This document shows positions 2,076 to 30,848 of a DNA stretch of 33,715 bases, piece by piece. Both the position numbers and the translations under genes were made by a program. Position 1 is the first letter of the stretch. Every line of letters begins with the position of its first letter. A model generated the notes under the pieces. That model had not been told where the DNA came from and did not search any database. It saw only the letters and a program-made list of their open reading frames with translations. The stretch spans positions 17,113 through 50,827 of the forward strand of contig NW_003129380.1 in NCBI RefSeq assembly GCF_000003605.2, in the 5' to 3' direction. The stretch comes from Saccoglossus kowalevskii (lineage: Eukaryota; Hemichordata; Enteropneusta; Harrimaniidae).

Positions 2076-3261
2076 AACAGCAAACTTTACATACCAAATT
2101 TCATGCTTTTATCATGATTTGAATATTTCCTTAGGTTGTTATGGCTTAACCACGAGACTACAAGTAAATCAATAACATGATAACAACGTGCGTGATAACA
2201 GTGTCATAATGGTTTTAGATTATTAAAAGCAATATCATTTGTTCTTGGTCTAGAAACATAGATTGAAAAGTATTATACTGGTGAAACAGATCATACTGGA
2301 AAAATCATGATCGGGAATAAAACTTTTACAATTTCAGTGGCAGTGATCGAATAATGTGAGTTATATCCCATTTTATACAATGGCAGGTGTCGCTATAGCA
2401 TAGAGATTTGAACCGTTTTGTGTGAATGCTTTAGTGCACATTGAATAATTATACTAATGTGGGAATTCCTTACGTTATATTTGTTCTAAACAAATATATT
2501 TGATCAACCACTACGTAACTGTTCTGTTGCTAAATGCATATATCATTATGTAAAGTGTTGCACATTTTGGCCAATGTATGATATGAAATATATATTTGTT
2601 ATCTTTGTACGTACTTTTTAGTTGTGAAGTTGTCCAACACAGTCACGTACGCTTGCAGAAAATGCTCATATTACCGGATGTGTTACAGCAGAACAGAAGA
2701 TAATTTGAGAAAAGCGATTATAACCAGCTGTAGTGGAACATTAAATTCACATTTCACACACACATATGTTGCAATGTGGTCATGATATCAAATAAAATTA
2801 ATGACTTAATGAGTATGCGGCCATCTTTTTCTCGCATTTCTATTTTTACAGCCTATACATATTCATTGCAAATTCACGGGATTTTTTTCGACGTATTATC
2901 CACGAACACAGAGTGTCAATATGTCACTAGGGCATATTTTTTATTGTTTTCCGAGTAATGGCTAGAACTCAACTGGAACTGAATTACATTACTTCCCGAC
3001 ATAGAAAGCCAGACTCTGCAGCAAACTAATAAATGCTTTGCATTTACATTAAGATCAACCCCACAATTCTTGCATTGTCAATGTTTTGCCATTTCAGCCA
3101 CTTTTGTAGCATTTATAGTTGTGCCCAACCTCTGCCTTCAAGGAATACTATAACAACCAGTTATTGTTGCACGATAAATAATACCTTATCTCAGGAAAAA
3201 AAACACACATTTACGTTTATCAACTATATACACTCATGCACTCATCTAAAACACACTTTAA

Positions 3262-4162
3262 GGTAGAGATGCAGTTTACTTGACAGGTATTTTAATTAGT
3301 TAATTAGGAAACCAAGATTACCTTCCTTGTCCACAAAACTATATATTTTCGGAAAGCTTATTGTATGAATTTTAAGATTTGGTTAGTATTTTTTTTATGG
3401 TCACTGTAGTTTGAGTTTTATAGTTTTGGTCAATAGTGATTTAAACAAAAAATAGCTCCTAAACCATGCTGCTGTTTACTGTCAAAATTGGTTTATGGGT
3501 ACATCTGTTTACTATGAAGAAAGTGCCGTCTTGAAAACTGTCTACCAGTTGTCAATTTTGCAGGGCAGCAGCCCAAATTTCACTATTTCAAGTTTATTCA
3601 TAAATCAACACCAAGGCTAGTTGTCTGTACGATTGTTGTAACACTGTTCAACCAAAAACAATGCCCCAACGGCGTTTTGAAGATGAACACATTGTCAATC
3701 ATTTGTGAAAATTTCAAAACAAAAGGTCAAAGCGTCTAGGAGCTAGTCCTGGGATGTGCACTAAAAAGAAGCTGAGATAATAGCTAATTTGCATAACAAT
3801 TCACTCAGTAAGAAGTTTGCTAATGCTCATAATAAAAATGGCTATAACAGTTCTAAATTTAAATGTATTATCGTTTTGTTAAAAGTTAAATATCGTGCAT
3901 ATTATGGAGATCCCGCCATTTCGTTTTTTCACCATGTTTCTTTTTTATTATTTATGTACAGCCTTGCTAAATCTTGCTAAGCATTCAAAAGAAAAAATGT
4001 TTGCACCTGTTATCTATATTATAAAATCGTTTTTTTTGAGTATGTTCCACTATTCACAATTCTACAAAATTTTAACAGTCTATAGCCAAGACTGTTTGGA
4101 TAATAAAAAGCAAAAAAAAAAAAAAAATCACTTCCAAGTGCCCACGAACCTGCATCTCTACC
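3262..4162. mobile_element. TTAA-flanked MITE-like element, 13-bp TIRs
   Basis: The left end reads TTAA (3258-3261) then GGTAGAGATGCAG (3262-3274). The right end reads CTGCATCTCTACC (4150-4162) then TTAA (4163-4166). The 13-bp inverted repeats are identical and both flanks are TTAA, as expected for a TTAA-specific (piggyBac-type) target duplication. The body is about 901 bp and AT-rich, with a 13-15-bp A run near 4114-4128. Its longest frame (3895-4203) runs out through the right terminus and shows no transposase motif, so this is a non-autonomous element mobilised in trans. The superfamily is inferred only from the TTAA target. Confidence 0.8.
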
Positions 4163-6246: not shown

Positions 6247-9039
6247 AGTTCCAAATTGCCAGATTGTCTTCCGTATGTGGCTGAGTATTGAAAAAAATAC
6301 AGTTGGTCGTACTATTTATGTAGCTTATCACTTTATTCAGTTACAATGTGTATTTGACGCAGGCACCTCAGCCGATTCACACCCGTTCTTTCGACGTACA
6401 GCGCGGAGCCGACACGGAGCCTCCACCTCAAGCATGGGTTGGTCTGTGCAAAATATTGAAATCATTATTTTAAGTCCTACAGTCTTATCAATTTAGTTTT
6501 AAGCCCAGACACGTACCGCAAATACAGTTACTATGTTTTCAAACGTGTGACGGTTGGAAATCTATGTTTATATTATACTGAGAGCACAGCTTGCATCATA
6601 CACACGGATATTACCGCGCATTTCACTGTGGCCGTATTTTATATCTGTTTCTTCAGTGTGGTACAATAAGAAAATGGGAAAACAAATTAATGGATTGAAA
6701 TTATCTAATTAGCCATGTTCAGCCATCAAGTTACAGATTGTAAAATGTCAGCTCAATCTCTGGCTGGGAAGAACGTCTTTTACTGTACAATTTTGTCCGT
6801 GATGCAGCTATGACGAGCAGTTTTACTGGACAGAAGATTGACGAATACATCCCTAGTATTTCCAGAGAAGGCACTTAAAGAAACGTTCACTATATAACAT
6901 CTGCCAAGGTGTAGTGGTGAGACGATAGTCAAATAAACAAACATTGGCTGGCGATGGTATGGGAGCTGTTGTTTTTTACAACCCAAAGGAATTAAGTGAC
7001 CACTTACCATAACATTTGAGTTTGTACTCCAGTACGTCATTGAGAATAATTAGGACCCCTGAAAGTACAACTTGTGTAGCCGGTTTGACCGGAAGCTTTA
7101 TATAAATATAGATGTGTATATTGATAGCAAGATTGCCAACATAAACTTCTGCAACTGATTTAACGTAATACTAAACTAAATTGAAACTGTACATATACAT
7201 ACCACTATCGTGCATACTAAGCCTAAGGGGCGTTGATTTGTGTCATATATATCTGACCAAGGATTGTAGATTTAAATAGCTCAACTTCCTGTATCTACTT
7301 TACGTCGAAAACAAAAACGTGCAGTCAGTCCTTCCATCAAGACTTAGTTATAAGCCACATTAGTCTTTTAGTACATGACAGTGGGTAACTAGTAGATACA
7401 TTTCTCCTACGCTATGGGATGTTTTTAATAATAAACGAATATCATGTGTAATAAGGATTCAGTAAATGTATCTTCCCAATGTCAGTATGATGAGTGAAAT
7501 AATGGTCAGATTATTCCTTCTTAGATTTGTGTGACGTGACTAACTTTAGTGTTTTTCAGACAAAAAGGCTTGTGATAAATTCAATAAAGATGAACTAAAT
7601 TGAAACTTAGTTATTTTGTAGTACGAATACATGACTAAACATGGTCTGTATTATGATAACGTGCTTAATAACCCTTAAACAACAGATAACACGCGCGTGC
7701 AACCTGTTCAATCTATTTTGTAAACACGGAATGTGAATAAAAATAATACAATTCATGTTTCTACTTCACATTGTAATGTGATACTTGGGTATTTAGGGTT
7801 CAAAGAGATTTATTTCTGAATTACTCAAATGACGCCAACAAATGATATTCGTTGATAGTTTGTCGCTCGTGAATCGGGAAGTTTTGTCGACCCTCATGAT
7901 GATGATTATTTGGCCACATACTGAAATCACAGTTTCAGAGATATTAAGGAAAGCTAAGGTGAAAATTATTTTGAACAGCAATAATACAATTTTATTTTTC
8001 TACTCGACGTACTGGACAAACAATCGCGATGAATTTCCTGCAATTAGACCAAATTACAATTTAGTTAGATGTTTTTGGTATAAAGAATATTTATATTTAC
8101 AGCGGAAATCCTTTCAGCTTAACACTTCAACACGAGCAGTTTGTTTAGCGACTCACTGAAACAATCATAAGGTCTCAGTGGTACAGCTGGTATAGTACTG
8201 TACAGGTCGCACGTTTTTATCCATGCAGTGCGATGACTAGTATGACCCCGAACACTCGAATTGAATGGCTTTTTAACAAAATCATTCAAATGCGTACACA
8301 TATTCGCAAAAGAAGAAAAAGAACATTCCGAGTACAAAAACATCAAAAGATTTGCCCGGAGATTCGCCAGCATGATCGACGGGGGACTCTCAAAAGAAGT
8401 TAAAACATTTTGCGTTTATCTTTTGACTTTTTAAACAATATGCTCTAATATTTTCGATTTTATAAAGCCTAAACACCGTAAGTGTAAACACGTGACTATC
8501 TGTCAATTATAACGTTTTATGCTGCAGCATGTGTAGCTAATTTCAATTCAAGAGCCCCTTTGGAAGTGCGAGTTGTTGCATTTAAAGAAATTGACATCAA
8601 CAATGTTTATAATTGAAGCTGCAAGGTGGTTTGTAAATCTAAATTGTCATTATGCTGATAAACTATAACTGATATACCTACTGTGATATGATCACTTCAG
8701 AGAATTGCACATGTGCAATAAATATTAATCAAGTAATCAAAATGTTGATATGTAAATTATCATAGCCAATTTGTCTTCACTTAGCCATTACCCGAGTCTC
8801 GTTGATATTTCTTCACATATGGCCGGTATATGCTAACGTTACATTTCGATGTGAATGTGTTCTTCCGACTCTTACATCCAGCAAACTCTAGAGAATCTTT
8901 CCAAAGGGAATCTCATGTTGTTGAGTTCGTTATTTATTCCGTTCAGAAAAAAACGGTTTCATTAGTTTCCGAACTAGTGTGTGCTTAGAACTGAAAACGG
9001 CGCTATGCTGACTGTGTCAAACATTTATTTTATTTTTAA
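6247..9039. other. No gene seen; AT-rich intergenic
   Basis: Several open frames of 62-105 codons (for example 7842-8159 plus, 8119-8373 minus) carry no recognisable motif and overlap each other on opposite strands. A short direct repeat, ACTAAATTGAAACT, occurs near 7172 and 7592. I see no RNA gene, tandem array or terminal inverted repeat. Confidence 0.45.
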
Positions 9040-14470: not shown

Positions 14471-14633
14471 TATAATAATAATAACTTTATTACGCTCCTA
14501 AAAACCTTCAGAGGGGTTGTGTATGGTAAGGAATGTAAATACACAGAAATACAAAAAACATAAAATTTAAAAAAGAGAAAATAAAATAAAATGTTAGTCA
14601 AAAACAAGAAGAAATTAATTACTTTCTGTGGTT

Positions 14634-17600
14634 TTAAAAATTGTGCTCTTCAATTATTTTGATAATCTTTTTAAATATGGAATTCACATCCATTGTGTAA
14701 ATATTTATTGAACACTCGTCAAACATTTTTTTTATTTGTTCTATATGGCCAGTACAAAATAGCAGGAAATGTTTTTCATCTCCTAATACTTCAGTGTTAC
14801 ACTTTTTACAATGTGTATTTTCTAATTTTATTTTGGGCTTTGTTCTTCTACCTAATTCTATTTCTAAGTTGTGGTCACTTAGACGGAATTTTGAAAGCAT
14901 TTTCCTGAGGCGGGAATTTGAAATGTTTTGCAAATAATTTTCCATATTATAACTTACTTATAACTTTTCCATATTATAACTTACATAGATGAGTTGCTTT
15001 TAAATTTTCCATTTGGAGTATATATTGCCCCTAAATAGCAAAACTCACTAACAGCTGTTATGTCTTGGTTGCTGATTTAAAAAATCATGTTTTTAATCAG
15101 TCTGTTACTGCAATTAAATACATAACCATAACTATAAATTGCTTAATTCCGCAGGTGGACTGAAATCCGTCAGTTATACCCTTTGGCAATATAGCTTTAT
15201 ATTTAATATCCTTATACATATATTTGATTATTTCATAAAAGCCAATGCCAATGTTTTTGTAACTTGCTGTCGAAAGATTTTCTAAACTCAACAAAACAAG
15301 TGTATAAGCAATTGTCAGAACTGCTGCTTTATTTTTATTATAAATTGTTTTTTCAACTGCTGTTTTTAAAAGGAAAATTAAAATTGCAAAGGAAATTTGT
15401 CGCCTGATTTGTGTGGTGGAACAAGAATTGTAGATTTCCAGATTGCAGGAAATTTTCAACTGTCTAGAATACTTTTGAAAAGTTTCTGTAAACATCTCAT
15501 CATTAACTTATTTTTGGTTTTCAACATTTCATTGGCAATGCTGTCATCAGCAGCTGACTTATATTATTTTTTAGTTTGCTGTCATGAATTTGTTTTTGCG
15601 TATCTGTTAACCGACTTAATTAGCTGATTATTAGCGAATTGCTGTGTTATGTCTGTCATCGTTTAGGTCTATTTGAAGTTTTGGACGGAACTTGGCTCAG
15701 TGGTTTGGAACTAATTACAAGATACCGTCGCTATTCTGACATCCGTAGTTATTAATGTAGTGAACGATTAATCAAAAGATATGACGTATTCAGTACTTAG
15801 TTTGATTGGCTTTATGATTGAAGGTTACGCCCTAGAGTCTTTTTACTGTTTTGTAATTGGTTAGAGTTTTGGAAATGAATAAAGAGAGTTTGAGTTGGTC
15901 TTGGCGAATACTCCACGATAGACGCAGTCGAGTGCAGTCCTGGGCAGTCGAGTCCAGTCCGAGAGAGTCCAGTCCAGGGGCGAGCCTTGAGGCAGTCCAG
16001 TCTTGGTCTTGGGGATTTTTTCCCCAGGGCGCTGTGTCTGATAGAGTGCTCGATTGACCGACTAAGACGAGAGCTGAAACGTATTTCGTTGTGTGTGTCT
16101 TATTTGACTGTAAAGTTAAAGTGACTTTCCCGATCCCGTACCTCAAGGGGACGAGATAGAGAGACGAGACGAGATTCCCCCCTGACAAGTGTGGAGAACC
16201 CCCGAGAGAAAAGAATTTTACCCCTGATATTGCTAACAGCGCTAAGAATTTCTTCCTATGTGATATTTGAGTTTAGATATTGGTTAGGAACTTGTTGCAT
16301 TTCGTTTTCTATAAGATTATTGTTTAACTCATGATTGTTATTGTTTGTTTTATTAAATGATCAATCCATTTTTTTTCCTGATATTGTTGTGTCTTGACTT
16401 TTGGTCTTTTGATTACGTAGGATTTTCAGCACAGATCAGTACTCATTTTGGTTGGCACTGTCCATATATTCAAGTTTGGACACGAACATGTTTTTATATT
16501 CTCTTTTTTTATATTTTATTAGTTTTGCATAATGCTTTTTAAGAGTATATTGGTGATATACGGGTTGGTTGGTTGATTTGTTAGCAACTTAGAGGTACTA
16601 ATTAATTCCCTTTTACTGCAGAACACGACTTATCAAACCATTGTTGTTTTGGAAGTTCATATTTTATTGTTCTTTTATTGGTTAATTTTTAAGGCAGTTA
16701 TCCGCTGCATCAATTGATATTTTGTTGAACTGATCTGTTGGTTCATTGACATCACTGTCTATGAAATCATTGACCGGGTAGTTTTTGAACATTGTTTCAA
16801 AATTTGAGTTTTGTAACATGACTTTGTATTTTTGCTTTGCCTCAACGTCCCAAATAATTTTTTTACAGCGCGGTTTCAATTTATCCAAAAGATTTGTGTT
16901 CTTGGTGTGATTGTAATTTACAGTCAGTGAGAAACCAATAGGAAATGATCTGACAAGTAATTAATATCATGAATTTTAAGATATTATATATGTCTATGTA
17001 AATCCTGTGTGATAATGCAGTACTTCAACTGTACTTGAACCAGCCGGATTATGACAGGTAAAGTTGCCATTTAAATCACCTATATTCCTACTATTTGCTA
17101 TTAAAAGATTATTTATAATTCAAAGTTCGACTAATTGTTTGCCAAACTTATTGTTAGTTTTATCTTGGGTGTGCTTTTTCAAAATTTTCTAAATTATTTG
17201 GAATGTGTACATGAATGTTATCTTCAAATGCAATGTAATCAATTATATTTCCAATGCGACTATTGAAATCACCTGTTATAATTACCTGGCTCTGATTGGA
17301 AAAAAAATGTTATTTCTTTTTCTAAAATGCCAAAGTAGTCAACATCTATGTATATACAACCCAAAGAAATATCATTTTCTAATGAGAACAATTCCTTGTC
17401 CAATTTACACCAAAGGAAGTCATTAATTTCAGATGTTATTTCACTCAGCCCTCCCCTCAACCCTGATTTAAACAAAATTGCCACTCCCCATAGTTCCTTC
17501 TACTTCTAGCTGATTTGCATTTTCTGTCTCTTTTAAAATAACTATAACTATCTAATACATCTAATGAACTACTACCTAGAATACCTAACCAAATCTCTTG

Positions 17601-17753
17601 TAAGCATGAAATATCAAATTTCTCTAAAATAGAAATATAGTCAGACTCTACACACGTGGCACCATGGCCGTGAATGTTCCAACTACCTACATTAAGATTA
17701 GTCTGCCTAATACTGTTGACAGTTGTTCTTTTCATCATTATTCTATTCTCCAC
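14634..17753 (-). pseudogene. LINE ORF2 pseudogene (AP endonuclease + reverse transcriptase)
   Basis: The endonuclease starts near 17753 with LNVGSWNIHGHG, DISCLQEIWLG (catalytic Glu box) and, after a frameshift, TGDFNSRIG near 17260 (catalytic Asp-Asn box). GDLNGNFTCHNPAGSSTVE follows near 17050, where the 'SxVDY' block is expected. A linker at 16888-16430 contains LKPRCKKIIWD and KKREYKNMFVSKLEY. The RT fingers are at 15540-15097 with NEMLKTKNKLMMRCLQKLF and GIGFYEIIKYMYKDIKY, followed by QSTCGIKQ. The C-terminal part (14945-14634) has RLRKMLSKFRLSDHNLEIE and a CKKC-x(11)-HFLLFC zinc-knuckle-like end. The YxDD-containing palm between 15097 and 14945 is missing, so there is an internal deletion besides many stops. 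The protein would cut target DNA and copy the element's own RNA. Confidence 0.85.
15640..16245 (+). mobile_element. Foreign segment inside LINE ORF2, LTR-like (uncertain)
   Basis: Recognisable ORF2 sequence stops near 15600 and resumes near 16400, and the DNA between has a different character. On the plus strand it shows inverted CCAAT words (GATTGGC near 15806, AATTGG near 15855), AATAAA at 15878-15883, a run of CAGTCC/GAGTCC words (about 15926-16005), then a GC-rich GACGAGA stretch and GTGGAGAACCCCCGAGAG near 16190. This order resembles a solo LTR with polyadenylation signal and R/U5 region. I could not fix TG...CA ends, and the only candidate duplication is GAATT at both edges, so the class is tentative and the boundaries are approximate. 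Confidence 0.35.
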
Positions 17754-17828
17754 GATACGGGGTTGTTTTTCAATGAAATGAAATTATATCAAAAAAGCTA
17801 AGAAGTTAAATATTAGTAGTTATAGTAG

Positions 17829-19581
17829 TCATGGTTTATGGTTGTAGCTATTGTTTGTCTGCCACTTTGAACGTTGACTGTATTTGTTGCCTGTGTGGTG
17901 ATAGTTCCTGTTTGCATGGTCATCTTCATAACCTGCACTGTGATATTCATATTGATTAGTAGCTGCAGGACTGTAGTAAGAATCATGATGGTCATTATTA
18001 TATCGTCGATGTGAATGATGTTTCTGGGAATTATCATAGTAATATGCATTGTCGTAATGGTTATTATGGTCATAGTAGTTTTCACGATTGTTGTATCTGC
18101 TATAGTACTGACTGAAATGATTGTATTGTTCATCACGGTGATTTTGGTTTCTGGAATTATTATCCAATCTGAACTTGGATGATAAGACTTGTGTTTGTCT
18201 GATTTGTGGTACTGCTGTTGATCATGACTACCAGAATTTCTCCTTTTCTGGTAATGAGAGTGAGTATTCCTCTGAACATGAGCAGTTGTGTGTTTGATGT
18301 CAGCTACTAGTAGACTGGTGCCTCTAATGTTAATATGGATTCCATCACTGGAATACATATTTTTAGCACTGCTTTGCTTTCTATGTTCCACAAATAAACA
18401 GTTTATAGTGTTATTGTTTTTAAGTCTGGTTAAATTGTTTATATCATCTATCACTATCTTGAACTGTGGTAGAATACATGGTTGATGTGCGAATTTTCTT
18501 CACCTTTTTATATTTATACATGTGATTAGTGTTGTTTTGTCATGGAATCTCCAATATTTAATATGTCAACACCCTCTAAATTATGATGCATATGTTGTTT
18601 CATGTTATCAAACTTGGCCTCTTTATTTTGTTTGTCCTCGATAACAATTGGTTCTGAAGTAGTAGGGACAAAATGTTTTATTTCAGCTTGTAGGTCAGTA
18701 AAGGAAGTGTTTTCGTCACTAGCACTCTGTAAGCAGGATTACCGATTTCGAGTTTCAATTGGCTATGTTTGAATATTCTTAATATCCTATTTTACCTTAT
18801 CCATTTCTTGCTTCCATTCCTTAGAAAGTGCAACTTGTCGACTTTTTGCTTCTATTTCCAATCCAGTTTGAGCTTTCACTAGATCGTCACGCCACTTTTC
18901 ACTAATATTAAGAAATTGTTGTTTAAGCTCCTTAAATCTCTGTCGCCATGGCTCTGTTTTTGACTCTGAGTGTGCTTATCTCTGTTTGTTTTCCTTAACC
19001 TTTGTTACGTTCTGGAATTTCTCGAAATCGCTGATTTTTGCTTTAGATTAAGCTCCAACTCGGCAAATCTATTTGATAAAGTGGTGTGTTTATCCTCAAT
19101 ACTGTGGATCAAACTGTGGATTTCAAACTGTGACATTTCTTGATTCCTTCGATGAGAAATGAGAGTACTTGTCGCCCTGTTCACTGTTTCCGTCTTTTCA
19201 AGATGGCGGCTTGTTGTTTATCTACTGCAAGTAGTCGATTGTTGGTAGTTAGTTGTCTTTGGCGTGATTTTTGTTGTCTTCATAACCACATTCATTATTA
19301 TTATTATTATTATTATTTAAATTCAATAGCGACTTGATCATGGTGATAGAATTGTCTTCATCGGATTTTACGTAACTTAAGTTTGACGTGATTTCCGCTC
19401 TGTTCCCATTAATGATGCCATCGTTGTCTGTTCCGTACATTTGAATATACTGTTTTGCGTCTTCTAAAGTATCGTAGCCCTTAAAACAGTTGCCTAGATA
19501 ACCATTCGCCAGTCGATGACATTCTTTCTAAGTAGTCATGATCCCCGTCTTCTGTTCAATTACAACTGCAAAGAACTTCAT
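17829..19581 (-). pseudogene. LINE ORF1 pseudogene: RNase H1 hybrid-binding domain, coiled coil, SGNH esterase remnant, YHN-rich tail
   Basis: ATG at 19581 opens MKFFAVVIEQKTGIMTT, an in-frame TAG, then KECHRLANGYLGNCFKGYDT and LEDAKQYI. This is the RNase H1 N-terminal hybrid-binding fold (Cauli_VI/viroplasmin family), with a stop at the position normally held by Trp. A poly-Asn run follows (about 19292-19315). Frames at about 19140-18780 give charged, heptad-like stretches such as LIHSIEDKHTTLSNRFAELE and WRDDLVKAQTGLEIEAK, consistent with a coiled coil. An SGNH-esterase trace follows: ILNIGDSMTK (GDS at 18552-18544) and SSDGIHINIRGTSLL (DxxH at 18346-18335). They are only about 70 codons apart, so the middle of the esterase is probably deleted. 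The tail (18260-17829) is rich in Tyr, His and Asn. Frameshifts and stops are throughout. ORF1 proteins of this group are thought to bind element RNA and lipid or protein surfaces. Confidence 0.75.
19438..19581 (-). other. RNase H1 N-terminal (hybrid-binding/viroplasmin) domain
   Basis: About 48 residues match the family pattern K-F-A-V, T-G-I-T-T-(W)-E-C, N-G-Y-G-F-K-G-Y, T-L-E-A-Y in order and spacing. In cellular RNase H1 this domain grips RNA/DNA hybrids. Here it heads a retrotransposon ORF1 rather than an RNase H catalytic domain: none of the expected downstream catalytic residues are visible. One TAG interrupts it. Confidence 0.8.
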
Positions 19582-19700
19582 TATCTTCCCTTTCGACCAT
19601 TTATATGTCGGCACATAATTGATGCAACTCGTTGGAGATGTAAGCAAAACGTTTGGTTCTGTTGTTCCGTACAGATCTCCCAGTCATGACTAACGTTCTC

Positions 19701-20136
19701 CGAGCTTTTTTTATATGTTTAGTGGTTGATCTACGTTGATTTGAAAAAGGTAATGAACCTGCAACCGCCGTATCGATTTGATTTTGAAGAGCTCACTCAC
19801 ACACGTGTTGACAGTACAACGCCATTAGCATTATTTATACAAGACATACACATTACTCTCAAGAAGGTTTAATGTCTTGTTTGTATTTACACAATGTGAA
19901 TGAGGGGATTATTGTCAAAATATATACGGGTGCTTGAAATTATACAAAATTCTGTTTCATGTGTTAAAAGAACATTACAATGTTCTAATGAAATTTTTAA
20001 ATATTGGTATCATTCCCAACTGTCACCAAACTATACGTTTTGAAGACTTGTATGCAATTGTAAGATTATATTTCAGTTATACTCGAATTAAATCTCAGCA
20101 CTGTGCCATTTATTAATGTCGTGGTTTTGTTATAAG
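19701..20136. other. No gene seen; possible LINE 5' flank
   Basis: Contains no recognised motif. Part of it may be the 5' untranslated leader of the LINE. A 60-codon plus frame at 19934-20116 is unremarkable. Confidence 0.4.
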
Positions 20137-20591
20137 CAAGTCTCAGAAGTAATGGGGTAGCCAATTTGCAAACTGGCTAGCGAATTGGCTAACTGCCTGG
20201 GTTTTGACTAAAAAGTTGACTTTCGAATCTCGCTGATGCCAACTTGTGGTTGCGTCTACTCTGGTCTATATTGTTTTAGGTGACATAGAATGCTTTCACT
20301 TGGCCTGGTACGTGTTTGGATTCATCTGGACGATTTGCTTTGTTATGTGAGGCGTGATAATGCAAAATTAGTGCGAGTAATTTATAATTTATATAGGGGG
20401 GTAGCCATCTTAAACACGGCTTGAAACCAAATAAAGAGACAAGTTGAGAAACAGTTTCCTACAACTCAGGGAGAAAATAACATTTTCACATCCAAACGAT
20501 CTGTTTTGGGTAACATTGAGTCAAAACCCAAACAGTTAGCCAATTCGCTAGCGACTTTGCAAATTGGCTGCCCCAATACGTCTGAGACTTG
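20137..20591. mobile_element. Foldback/MITE-like element with 73-bp inverted arms
   Basis: The left arm 20137-20209 (starting CAAGTCTCAGAAGTA) and right arm 20519-20591 (ending TCTGAGACTTG) are inverted copies over 73 bp with roughly ten mismatches. Each arm is itself partly self-complementary: TAGCCAATTTGC and GCGAATTGGCTA occur in the same arm around GCTAG. The 309-bp interior is non-coding, with AATAAA and a G run near 20395. Flanks read TTATAAG on the left and TAATAA on the right, compatible with a TA target duplication but not decisive. Non-autonomous; the superfamily is not determined. Confidence 0.85.
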
Positions 20592-27900: not shown

Positions 27901-28450
27901 TCATTGTGTGTTTCGCACATGGGAGTCAAAAACTGTAAATACAACAACATTTTAAAATTTCATCAACAAACTCAAAGTTTATAAATGAAACTTAACTACC
28001 TATACATCTGCTTTGTCACTCTATTGTTTAAACTTGAATAGTATAAATCATTAGCAATGTCTCCGTCATGCTTTTAGTGACAAACAATAAAAAGTCAGAT
28101 TATGTTTAGATATTGGGATAATATTTAGCATATTAACTACAAATGTTGATAACATTTTGTTTTGTTAAAATTTTGCAATTTTATTCCTTTTTCATAAAAA
28201 TGCCCGCGATTTCACTAAATTTCACTGAAATCCAAAATAAATGATAAACAATATTTAACCAGTTATATCTTGCCTTTGTACAAAATGTAACCCAAATCTG
28301 AACAGTCATCTCTGTAAAATGAGCAGAACACTCACAAAAACCAATGGCCACCAGTCCGCCATTTTAAATCACATCACCAAAAACAATGACGTGCATCAGT
28401 ATGCCAATTTTGAAAGATATCGGTCAAGGCATGTCCAAGAAACAGTTGAT
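27901..28450. other. No gene seen
   Basis: AT-rich sequence. Near 28385-28411 the phrase GTGCATCAGTATGCCAATTTTG resembles the unit of the adjacent 50-bp minisatellite and may be its origin. Confidence 0.4.
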
Positions 28451-28846
28451 AGCAGTAACATCTCTACTCTATCAGACATGCAGCATGCCAATTCTGTCAG
28501 GCCTGTAACAGGTCTGCTCTATCAGACATGCACCATGCCAATTCTGTCTGGCCTGTAATAGGTCTGCTCCACCAGACATGTAGCATGCCAATTCTGTCAG
28601 GCCTGTAACAGGTCAGCTCCACCAGACATGTAGCATGCCAATTCTGTCAGTCCTGTAACAGGTCTGTTCCATCAGACATGCAGCATGCCAATTCTGCCAG
28701 GTCTGTAACGGGTTTGCTCTATCAGACATGCACCATGTCAATTCTGTCAGGTCTGTAACAGGTCTGCTCTATCAGACAAGCACCATGCCAATTCTGTCAG
28801 GCCTGTATCAGGTCTTCCCCATCACACATGCATCATGCCAATTCTG
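28451..28846. repeat. 50-bp-period minisatellite, about eight units
   Basis: Units begin (A/C)(T/C)CAGACATG at 28471, 28521, 28571, 28621, 28671, 28721, 28771 and 28821, with no indel over 350 bp. Each holds GCATGCCAATTCTGTCAG and the near-palindrome CCTGTAACAGG. A degraded half unit precedes (28451-28470) and the last copy is truncated. Because 50 is not a multiple of three, no repeated peptide is maintained; the plus frame over it is fortuitous. The regular period without unique spacers excludes a CRISPR array. Confidence 0.95.
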
Positions 28847-30848
28847 AATATTGGATAATTTAAAAACATTTCAGTATCCCCTAATCGCATACCACATGTA
28901 ACTTTTCATATTTTATATTCAAAGATATAAAAACCAAAAATATCACCTTACAACGCGTTTTTGAAATTTTGTGTTCTATCAACCATTATAAATCAACAGT
29001 ATCAGAATTGAAAGCTTTATATTATCACAACTTTACATTATCACAAAATAATGTTAAACCTCTATTTGCTAGTGAGTTCATTTCAACAAAACATCCAAAT
29101 TTGTTTAATAATGGTGGTGATGCCCCACAGCGCCATATTCAGTGAAGAGAATGGTCTAAGACACGTTATCATTTTAATGAAAAAGTCCTCTGGCTAGTAT
29201 ATTTTTTGGAGTCGTGTGGTAAGCCAATAGTCCACTATTGTGCAAAATAAATGTTGTAAACTAAACTCTAGTGAGTACACAATTCAGTAGTTTGATTTAT
29301 TCAGTTTGATCAATTGAGGTTACTGACAGACACTGAAAGTACACCAAGAACATATTGACCATCACATGATATGGAATTTTTAAAATGATAAAATATTAAT
29401 AAAACACCTCTCCTTCAATGTCATGGTAAGCATTATAAGCACCCCGTATTGACAATGCCACTTGCTGTATCAACCGATCCATACATTTCTACCATGTCCC
29501 CTGTTTGTTTCTCGCATTCAATGGCTCAACATCTCATTCTCCTAGAAAACAAGACATAATGTCATCATGCCAATGTGGTTGCTGAAGTGAATCATTTAAA
29601 TTATAGTGTATATTAGAATCAAATCATGTAAAGCAAAACATAGCATTCACAGTCTACTACAGATATTAATTAAAAAAAATATAACCCCTTTATAAGTTAT
29701 ATTTTTGAAAAAAAAGTCAGTTGAGATTATTACGAATTAATCAATTTAAGTGTTATACAGTCAAAAACAATGTTTTGTAGTCATAGTCAATGACAAAAAC
29801 TTATTTAGTCCCTATTCAGTTTTAGTAACAGTGTAAATTATAACATTATCAATACCAGTGAATTGCTGCAGATTATTCACAATAATATATTCTGTTTTTG
29901 AGCATCAAGGCTTGTACCATGAATATGAATACAATATTGTTTTCAACAACGAATGAAGGAGAGGGTATATAAAAAGAAGAGAAAATATTGGGTAACACAT
30001 TTTTAATCATAAAGTTGACATTAAAAAAGTACCATTGGCAATAACAATGGATTTCATTATTAAAATTGATGATATTTTCGGGACATCGTCATCTGCTCCA
30101 TGACTTGATTCTTGTCCAAATGTGGCGTTCCATCCAGTATACCGTGCTTGTAGATCCCTGCTGGTGTCATTGTGGTCATTTGAACGTGTTATTATTGATT
30201 AACAATTTTTCACCAGTTGAACTATGAAACACATTGTGACACAAATTGAATGTTCGAATAAAATGAACAAAATCAATCAAGGCCATTTGAGAAATTATGT
30301 CTGATGGACACACAAATGTACAGAACCCAGAACATTCCAGTCGCTTATTCAACAGGACAAATGATGTTCCAGGGATTGTTTTGGTTCTTCTATTTACTGC
30401 CTTAACAAATAACAAATATTAACTTGATAGAATCAAATAAAGACTTAATTCTTACATGTTTACATTGCTGGCGTCTACTTCAGAAGGTTTTAACTTCTTG
30501 CAACTATATTTATTAAAAAATATATGTGTGAGACATATCGTATTAAATACAAGTCATTACACCATACAAACGGAATAATAAACACATTATTATACACCTG
30601 TCACCATAACGTCATAAGTTACAGCGTACAGTAATTTTGCGGTGTTTTACAGGGTATTTTCATCCTACCATACAAGGAAATTCGAATTCCAAATATTGGA
30701 TGATTACGGACATAAGCGACCTCTAATAATAAAAAAAAAACATTGCTGCCACCAAAGTTTGACGGGACTCAACACAAAGTAGTTCGCTAATTCTGTTCTA
30801 AACGTTTTTGATTTCGGAATTTCCATGATGTATCCTTGAACGAAAAAG
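28847..30848. other. No gene recognised; AT-rich
   Basis: A minus frame at 30176-30415 (contains RLECSGFCTFVCPSD) is preceded by a TTGTTAAGGCAG acceptor-like word and could be a stray exon, but I recognise no family and the frame closes at TGA/TAA without a donor. Nothing else stands out. Confidence 0.35.

Follow-up and report, generated by a model that had tools for sequence, protein, structure and literature searches.

Does the first open reading frame (ORF1) of a hemichordate LINE carry the hybrid-binding domain (HBD) of RNase H1 as a part of its own, and what might such a domain do there? This question is raised by a 33,715-nucleotide stretch of Saccoglossus kowalevskii DNA (contig NW_003129380.1, positions 17,113 to 50,827; hereafter the window), in which an earlier note had read an HBD, a coiled-coil region, an esterase remnant and a tail in this order on one strand, followed by an APE-RT ORF2. 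Translation and tblastn searches bore out this order. In the following, loci and contigs of the source genome are designated by L and C numbers, respectively, and statements on cited papers refer to excerpts of their text.

A decayed LINE in the window

The minus strand of the window holds, from 19823 to about 14472, a decayed but apparently full-length LINE (Table 1). Its ORF2 has both an APE endonuclease and a reverse transcriptase (RT), as found by tblastn in the window and by Pfam in two other copies, with Exo_endo_phos over its cut-off in L015 (5.2e-06) and RVT_1 at 6.6e-29 in L039. By eye, the 5′ end of L015 is similar to the start of the window LINE, a simple 3′ end (AATAAAGTTATTATT) is visible, and the copies on C11 and C2459 seem to begin inside the element. 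The two ORF2 domains identify the element as a non-LTR retrotransposon, present here as a decayed copy. Its ORF1 is spread over three frames, one with the HBD, the coiled coil and the GDS box, one with the DGIH box (17813-18499) and one with the tail. Both repeat blocks within ORF2 also occur in L015, upstream of the LINE there.

Table 1. Features of the LINE copy in the window (positions in the window)
Feature	Position	Strand	Evidence
Whole LINE copy	14472..19823	-	5′ end and collinear homology common to L020 (another contig)
5′ untranslated region	19688..19823	-	within the 81% block common to L020
ORF1 leader, basic, in a frame different from the HBD (MTGRSVRNNRTKRF...)	19604..19687	-	translation
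RNase H1 hybrid-binding domain (HBD, PF01693)	19438..19581	-	Pfam, PDB profile, tblastn
Coiled-coil-like region of ORF1	18811..19169	-	tblastn from L015, 2e-13; coil by eye
GDS box (SGNH block I)	18544..18552	-	translation
SGNH esterase, C-terminal part	18287..18451	-	tblastn: L014 2e-12, L048 6e-08, L045 4e-04
DGIH box of SGNH esterase	18335-18346	-	
His/Tyr/Asn/Asp-rich ORF1 tail	17829..18221	-	open frame, 130 aa
ORF2 APE endonuclease domain	17229..17696	-	tblastn 3e-18 and 2e-22 (from L015)
Other repeat sequence within ORF2	15580..16229 (blocks 16006-16229, 15580-15886)	-	blastn 84-86%
ORF2 reverse transcriptase remnant	14984..15330	-	tblastn from L039, 1e-12 and 2e-07
LINE 3′ end	14491-14472	-	AATAAAGTTATTATTATTAT

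The HBD belongs to ORF1

With the in-frame TAG set to X, the window copy matched PF01693 over positions 1-44 of 44 (E 3.7e-07; 30.7 bits, Pfam cut-off 21 bits), the match covering residues 2-45 of the frame that starts at 19581, so about 19447-19578. The TAG is the codon equivalent to Trp43 of RNase H1, and E improves to 1.9e-10 if it is read as W. The window HBD also matched the N-terminal domain of RNase HI in the PDB (1qhk_A, E 2.3e-4), and the profile of alignment A2, whose 12 HBD rows come from the host gene and 11 LINE loci, without L039 and its frame-shifted HBD, matched the RNase H1 structures 1qhk_A (1.1e-20) and 3bsu_A (6.7e-19). A chance match is ruled out, as Pfam is above its cut-off even with X at the stop and 11 non-host loci of the genome lie above it. 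The profile matches confirm the HBD reported by the earlier note, with the entire domain matched. Furthermore, the frame from the HBD to the GDS box (18541-19581) has 13 stops in 347 codons, compared to 20 and 36 per 346 in the other two frames, and letter shuffles gave a mean of 25.8 stops (P(≤13) 0.003).

Comparison of the window with L020 gave a single gapped block of 935 columns and 81% identity, reaching from the 5′ end over leader and HBD into the coiled-coil region; eight more DNA blocks (77-92%) continue through ORF1 and ORF2. L015 matched the window in the HBD (2e-18), the coiled-coil region (2e-13) and the APE domain (3e-18 and 2e-22), and its 288-residue HBD-coiled-coil frame aligned with the window at query residues 2-280 (E 1.6e-30). 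Across copies, the order is leader, HBD, coiled-coil-like region and SGNH esterase, then the APE-RT ORF2. The earlier note had allowed for the HBD being a separately inserted host RNase H1 pseudogene; the collinear block of L020 and the window rejects this, the HBD lying within continuous DNA homology between independent insertions, and the domain order recurs in three families. These comparisons support the view that the HBD belongs to the LINE ORF1 itself.

The same note had placed the HBD at the very start of ORF1. Its near-N-terminal place holds, but a basic leader precedes it. The leader region is inside the DNA block common to the window and L020, and the leader of L015 matches those of L020 (6e-07) and L019 (7e-06) by search; as a query, it found no match in the window at E 1e-3.

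Esterase, coiled coil and tail

Of the esterase remnant, the GDS and DGIH boxes are present in the window copy, but the GxND box was not seen there, and the window pieces stay below the cut-off of every Pfam esterase model. The region is called an esterase because it is homologous to better copies. All three SGNH boxes (GDS, GxND, DxxH) are present in L019, GDS and GAND in L015, and GTND and DGIH in L014. The esterase half of L014, which matched the window copy in the C-terminal part, reached 1.3e-04 with PF13472, under the cut-off; the esterase of L045 is over the cut-off (5.5e-08) and matches L014, L015, L019 and the window. The full set of boxes that defines a type IV ORF1 is seen across copies, but not within the window copy.

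The putative coiled coil is a heptad-like charged region by eye, with weak Pfam matches under the cut-off. The low-complexity tail is indeed present as an open frame, but its likeness to the tails of L014 and L015 is in make-up only, and the L015 tail query had no window match at E 1e-3.

HBD loci and families in the source genome

In the source genome (572 Mb, 4830 contigs), PF01693 gave at least 13 matches, namely two exons on C1 and 11 separate non-host loci including the window. The HBD-coiled-coil query of L015 added L039 on C2730, the frame-shifted HBD of which had been missed by the PF01693 scan, bringing the LINE HBD loci to at least 12. A downstream SGNH esterase on the same strand was detected in eight of the 12 (the window, L014, L015, L016, L017, L019, L020 and L022) by tblastn at E ≤ 0.01, with some queries from the same loci; queries from other loci matched each of the eight as well. 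No such esterase was detected at this threshold in L018, which is a fragment, in L021 and L023, which are mostly masked (7547 and 7769 of 9901 bases), or in L039, which has a degenerate SGNH remnant by eye. The copy on C11 begins inside the HBD, with the second half of the domain (25 residues, 80% to family C) followed by a coiled-coil-like frame and SGNH by eye. A fully open ORF1 was not seen among the unmasked copies. In terms of sequence, the earlier observation of an HBD in ORF1 holds and is wider than the window could show, extending over at least 12 loci and three families.

The three families were sorted by us from the sequences: family A comprises the window, L014, L015, L019, L020, L021 and L039, family B two loci (L017 and L023), and family C L016, L018, L022 and the C11 copy. 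In the RT, L039 (A) and L017 (B) share 49% identity over 153 residues, and L039 and L022 (C) share 38% over 74 residues. In an APE tree of 11 rows and about 120 columns, with frames joined by hand and L019 partial, family A stood alone with a support of 0.927 and A plus B were set against the rest with 0.656, while a long branch united family C and L062 (0.999). Among the SGNH elements without a detected HBD, L045 was placed with C (0.872) and L044 and L049 together apart (0.755). Judged from the APE tree and the RT identities, the HBD is associated with at least two ORF2 types, finer order aside; gain on two occasions, exchange of ORF1 and loss in between all fit as its history.

Some members of family C have further peculiarities. 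L022 (G000:C1704) shows two CCHC knuckles after SGNH at 2961-3410 (oriented), one matching zf-CCHC at 0.0014, just under the cut-off, and the other seen by eye; HBD, esterase and CCHC knuckles would then seem to share one protein. In L016 the first esterase box is GYS, not GDS, and at 1-520 (oriented) of this locus (G000:C4008), about 1 kb upstream of the HBD and on the same strand, lies by eye a fragment resembling a GIY-YIG domain of Penelope type, for which a 98-residue piece gave no Pfam match.

SGNH elements without the HBD

According to the earlier note, intact copies without the domain would speak against it. The esterase half of L014 as query gave 13 matches at 12 places. Five places (C4226, C602, C2459, C4341 and the window) have an esterase at least 39% identical to that of L014, and the HBD is present in four of them; the fifth, C2459 (L042), has neither an upstream coiled coil nor an HBD and looks 5′-truncated. 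At the seven more distant SGNH places (C1012, C4069, C655, C2715, C408, C1438 and C3460), HBD searches in loci of about 2.6-3.4 kb gave a best E of 0.38, with L045 and L052 partly masked and the frame of L050 running past the locus end, and no PF01693 match was found on those contigs by the genome scan, which had passed over at least the HBD of L039. Within the stretches covered, an APE-like ORF2 is present in three of the seven (L044, L045 and L049). No HBD was detected in the family-C-like L061 and L062, whether within the locus itself or in about 1.8-2.1 kb of additional upstream sequence. Hence, the HBD is present in four of the five close esterase places and was detected in none of the distant ones, so that it is not general to esterase ORF1s. 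As judged from these loci, the domain is a module of certain lineages and one choice among several for the ORF1 N-terminus. L050 (C408) has two long open frames: one of 323 residues, in which no Pfam domain exceeds its cut-off, followed by one of 289 residues with SGNH over the cut-off (PF00657, 5.7e-06).

Selection and key residues of the HBD

For family A, six rows (all but L039) were compared at 33 HBD codons, a small sample in which the pairs are not independent; pooled pS was 0.728 and pN 0.180. pN was lower than pS in 14 of the 15 pairs, with pS of 0.66-0.94 between subfamilies; the sole exception, the window versus L020 (pS 0.01, pN 0.12), is a pair of dead copies of one subfamily. This pattern indicates that the HBD was kept by purifying selection in active family-A lineages.

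Hybrid binding by human RNase H1 is impaired by the mutations W43A and KK59/60AA (PMC10639055), and a mutant with W43A/K59A/K60A/D210N is described as non-binding (PMC6868509). We located the equivalent residues in alignments to 3bsu_A and in A2, where L021 and L022 look frame-shifted around the lysine equivalents and their letters at these positions are unsure. Trp43 is kept in 10 of the 11 LINE rows of A2, the window having a stop; L039, outside A2, has Arg there in a shifted frame. The equivalent of Phe58 is Phe in seven of the 10 LINE rows with a letter, that of Lys59 is Lys in 7/10, and that of Lys60 is Lys in none of nine and Gly in six. With the Lys60 equivalent missing and Lys59 present in 7/10, hybrid binding could be weakened.

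Searches for an RNase H domain found none in the pieces of L015 ORF1, nor in the C-terminal parts of ORF2 that were tried, namely L015 in three frames, the last of them truncated, and L039 in a single frame out of three. On these pieces, the idea that the HBD belongs to an RNase H enzyme encoded by the element was rejected.

Comparison with known systems

Type IV (esterase) ORF1 proteins (ORF1ps) of CR1, L2 (ZfL2-1), RTEX and some Penelope-like elements likewise have a coiled-coil-like region followed by SGNH with GDS, GxND and DxxH boxes, which the LINE here shows across copies, before an APE-RT ORF2 (PMC3905857, PMC4120745). In the excerpts available, published type IV ORF1ps are described with a leucine zipper/zinc finger or an arginine-rich motif and without a defined RNA-binding domain, whereas the family found here has the HBD (PMC3905857, PMC4120745). 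Since the HBD is such a defined domain, we regard this protein as a variant of the type IV ORF1. The lack of defined RNA-binding domains in esterase ORF1ps is reported in the ZfL2-1 study (Schneider et al. 2013, PMC3905857). For 448 Jockey superfamily elements, PHD, RRM, CCHC, transposase 22, esterase, leucine zipper and zinc finger are given as ORF1 domains (Metcalfe and Casane 2014, PMC4120745), and Table 1 of this paper, as excerpted, has no RNase H1 domain. GDSL esterases are reported to be shared by different retroelement classes (Rodriguez et al. 2017, PMC5408684). Among the open-licence literature matches listed, in part as titles and abstract starts, there was no description of an HBD in a LINE ORF1, and HBD, coiled-coil-like region and esterase in one LINE ORF1 is a combination that we did not find described.

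With the N-terminal HBD of RNase H1 (1qhk, 3bsu), the LINE domains share the 44-position Pfam domain and the FYAVxxGRxxGIxxxWxEC pattern. They differ in that RNase H1 has a catalytic domain attached, which the LINE HBDs lack in the pieces tried, and in the Lys60 equivalent (0/9). PF01693 is also present in a protein of another reverse-transcribing element, the caulimovirus viroplasmin (TAV; PMC7102451). This, however, is a plant virus protein of an element class different from a LINE. Caulimovirus viroplasmin is not known to carry an esterase. A Pleurotus Helitron carries PF01693 inside a mobile element in the captured gene capE, but, unlike the LINE ORF1, this is a captured gene in a fungal DNA transposon (PMC4289320).

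Neither three scans of a viral contig collection nor an RT-alignment scan of a genome contig collection, both collections being without animal genomes, found a relative of the element. When HBD alignment A1 was used on genome contigs, again without animal genomes, 80 stretches matched the pattern and seven loci were obtained, bacterial by eye, in which the partner of the HBD is RNase H in six, a PIF1-like helicase in one and an esterase in none. In the bacterial locus L054, the HBD lies by eye ahead of the PIF1-like helicase, in place of RNase H.

A proposed role of the HBD in ORF1

How esterase ORF1ps hold nucleic acid is described as an open question (PMC3905857). The reading that we favour, and consider somewhat probable, is a modular type IV ORF1p with an added HBD, in which the multimeric protein would grip the RNA of the element or its RNA/cDNA hybrid. 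The putative coiled coil would join several ORF1 chains and so let several HBDs act together; the clustered HBDs might hold on to duplexes that contain an RNA strand, namely structured element RNA in a particle and the RNA/cDNA hybrid that arises in target-primed reverse transcription. The SGNH domain would deal with membranes or lipids. The HBD could thereby supply the defined nucleic-acid-binding domain said to be missing in published esterase ORF1ps. As the simplest account, a nucleic-acid-binding arm on a multimeric ORF1p is plausible, as is the role in holding the hybrid that the earlier note had proposed. A bolder version, which we put forward tentatively and with more doubt than confidence, is that the HBD was taken up and passed, with or within ORF1, between at least two ORF2 lineages and forms a many-handed clamp that, during target-primed reverse transcription, keeps host RNase H away from the RNA/cDNA hybrid, each chain also bearing an esterase that acts on membranes.

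The hybrid preference is not certain, since the human HBD was solved also with dsRNA (3BSU, PMC7102451). The domain may possibly bind dsRNA or structured RNA for the assembly of an RNA-protein particle and never an RNA/cDNA hybrid; we think this unlikely but give it real weight. ORF1ps are presumed to package element RNA (PMC3905857) and the second lysine occurs in no LINE row, both in agreement with this reading, whereas the retained Trp43 and Phe58 equivalents, and the binding of hybrids in cells by a tandem human HBD (PMC10639055), argue against it. A regulatory or decoy domain, which would block or compete with host RNase H1 on the hybrid of the element or target R-loops, is distinctly less probable: no RNase H domain accompanies the HBD in the pieces tried and R-loops in human cells are labelled by a sensor made of three HBDs in tandem, but a single HBD-GFP fusion gave merely diffuse staining (PMC10639055). 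Least of all do we credit an accidental insertion of a host RNase H1 exon or pseudogene beside the LINE ORF1, for although C1 bears a host-like RNase H1 gene with the same domain (identified from its HBD exons), an intron splits that HBD over two neighbouring exons (L012 and L013) while the LINE HBD has no intron, DNA homology of independent insertions crosses the LINE HBD in one block, three families have the same domain order, and the family-A HBD is under selection.

Returning to the arm on a multimeric ORF1p, these elements offer a natural family with a well-understood HBD in an esterase ORF1p, in which the question of nucleic-acid binding is testable by mutants of the residues equivalent to W43 and K59/K60. 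They also raise the possibility that ORF1p reads the RNA/cDNA hybrid itself, beyond RNA alone.

Other features near the LINE copies

Upstream of the LINE in the window, an inverted repeat with 76-base arms (20137-20212 and 20516-20591, 89% complementary, 303 bases between) lies close to the 5′ end of the element and is possibly a small DNA transposon. Downstream of the family-A copy in L039, open frames at 7329-8800 look, on visual inspection, like those of a PIF1-like helicase and may come from a Helitron. Tandem repeats are present in the window at 28405-28896 and 269-788, with units of 50 and about 104 bases, respectively.
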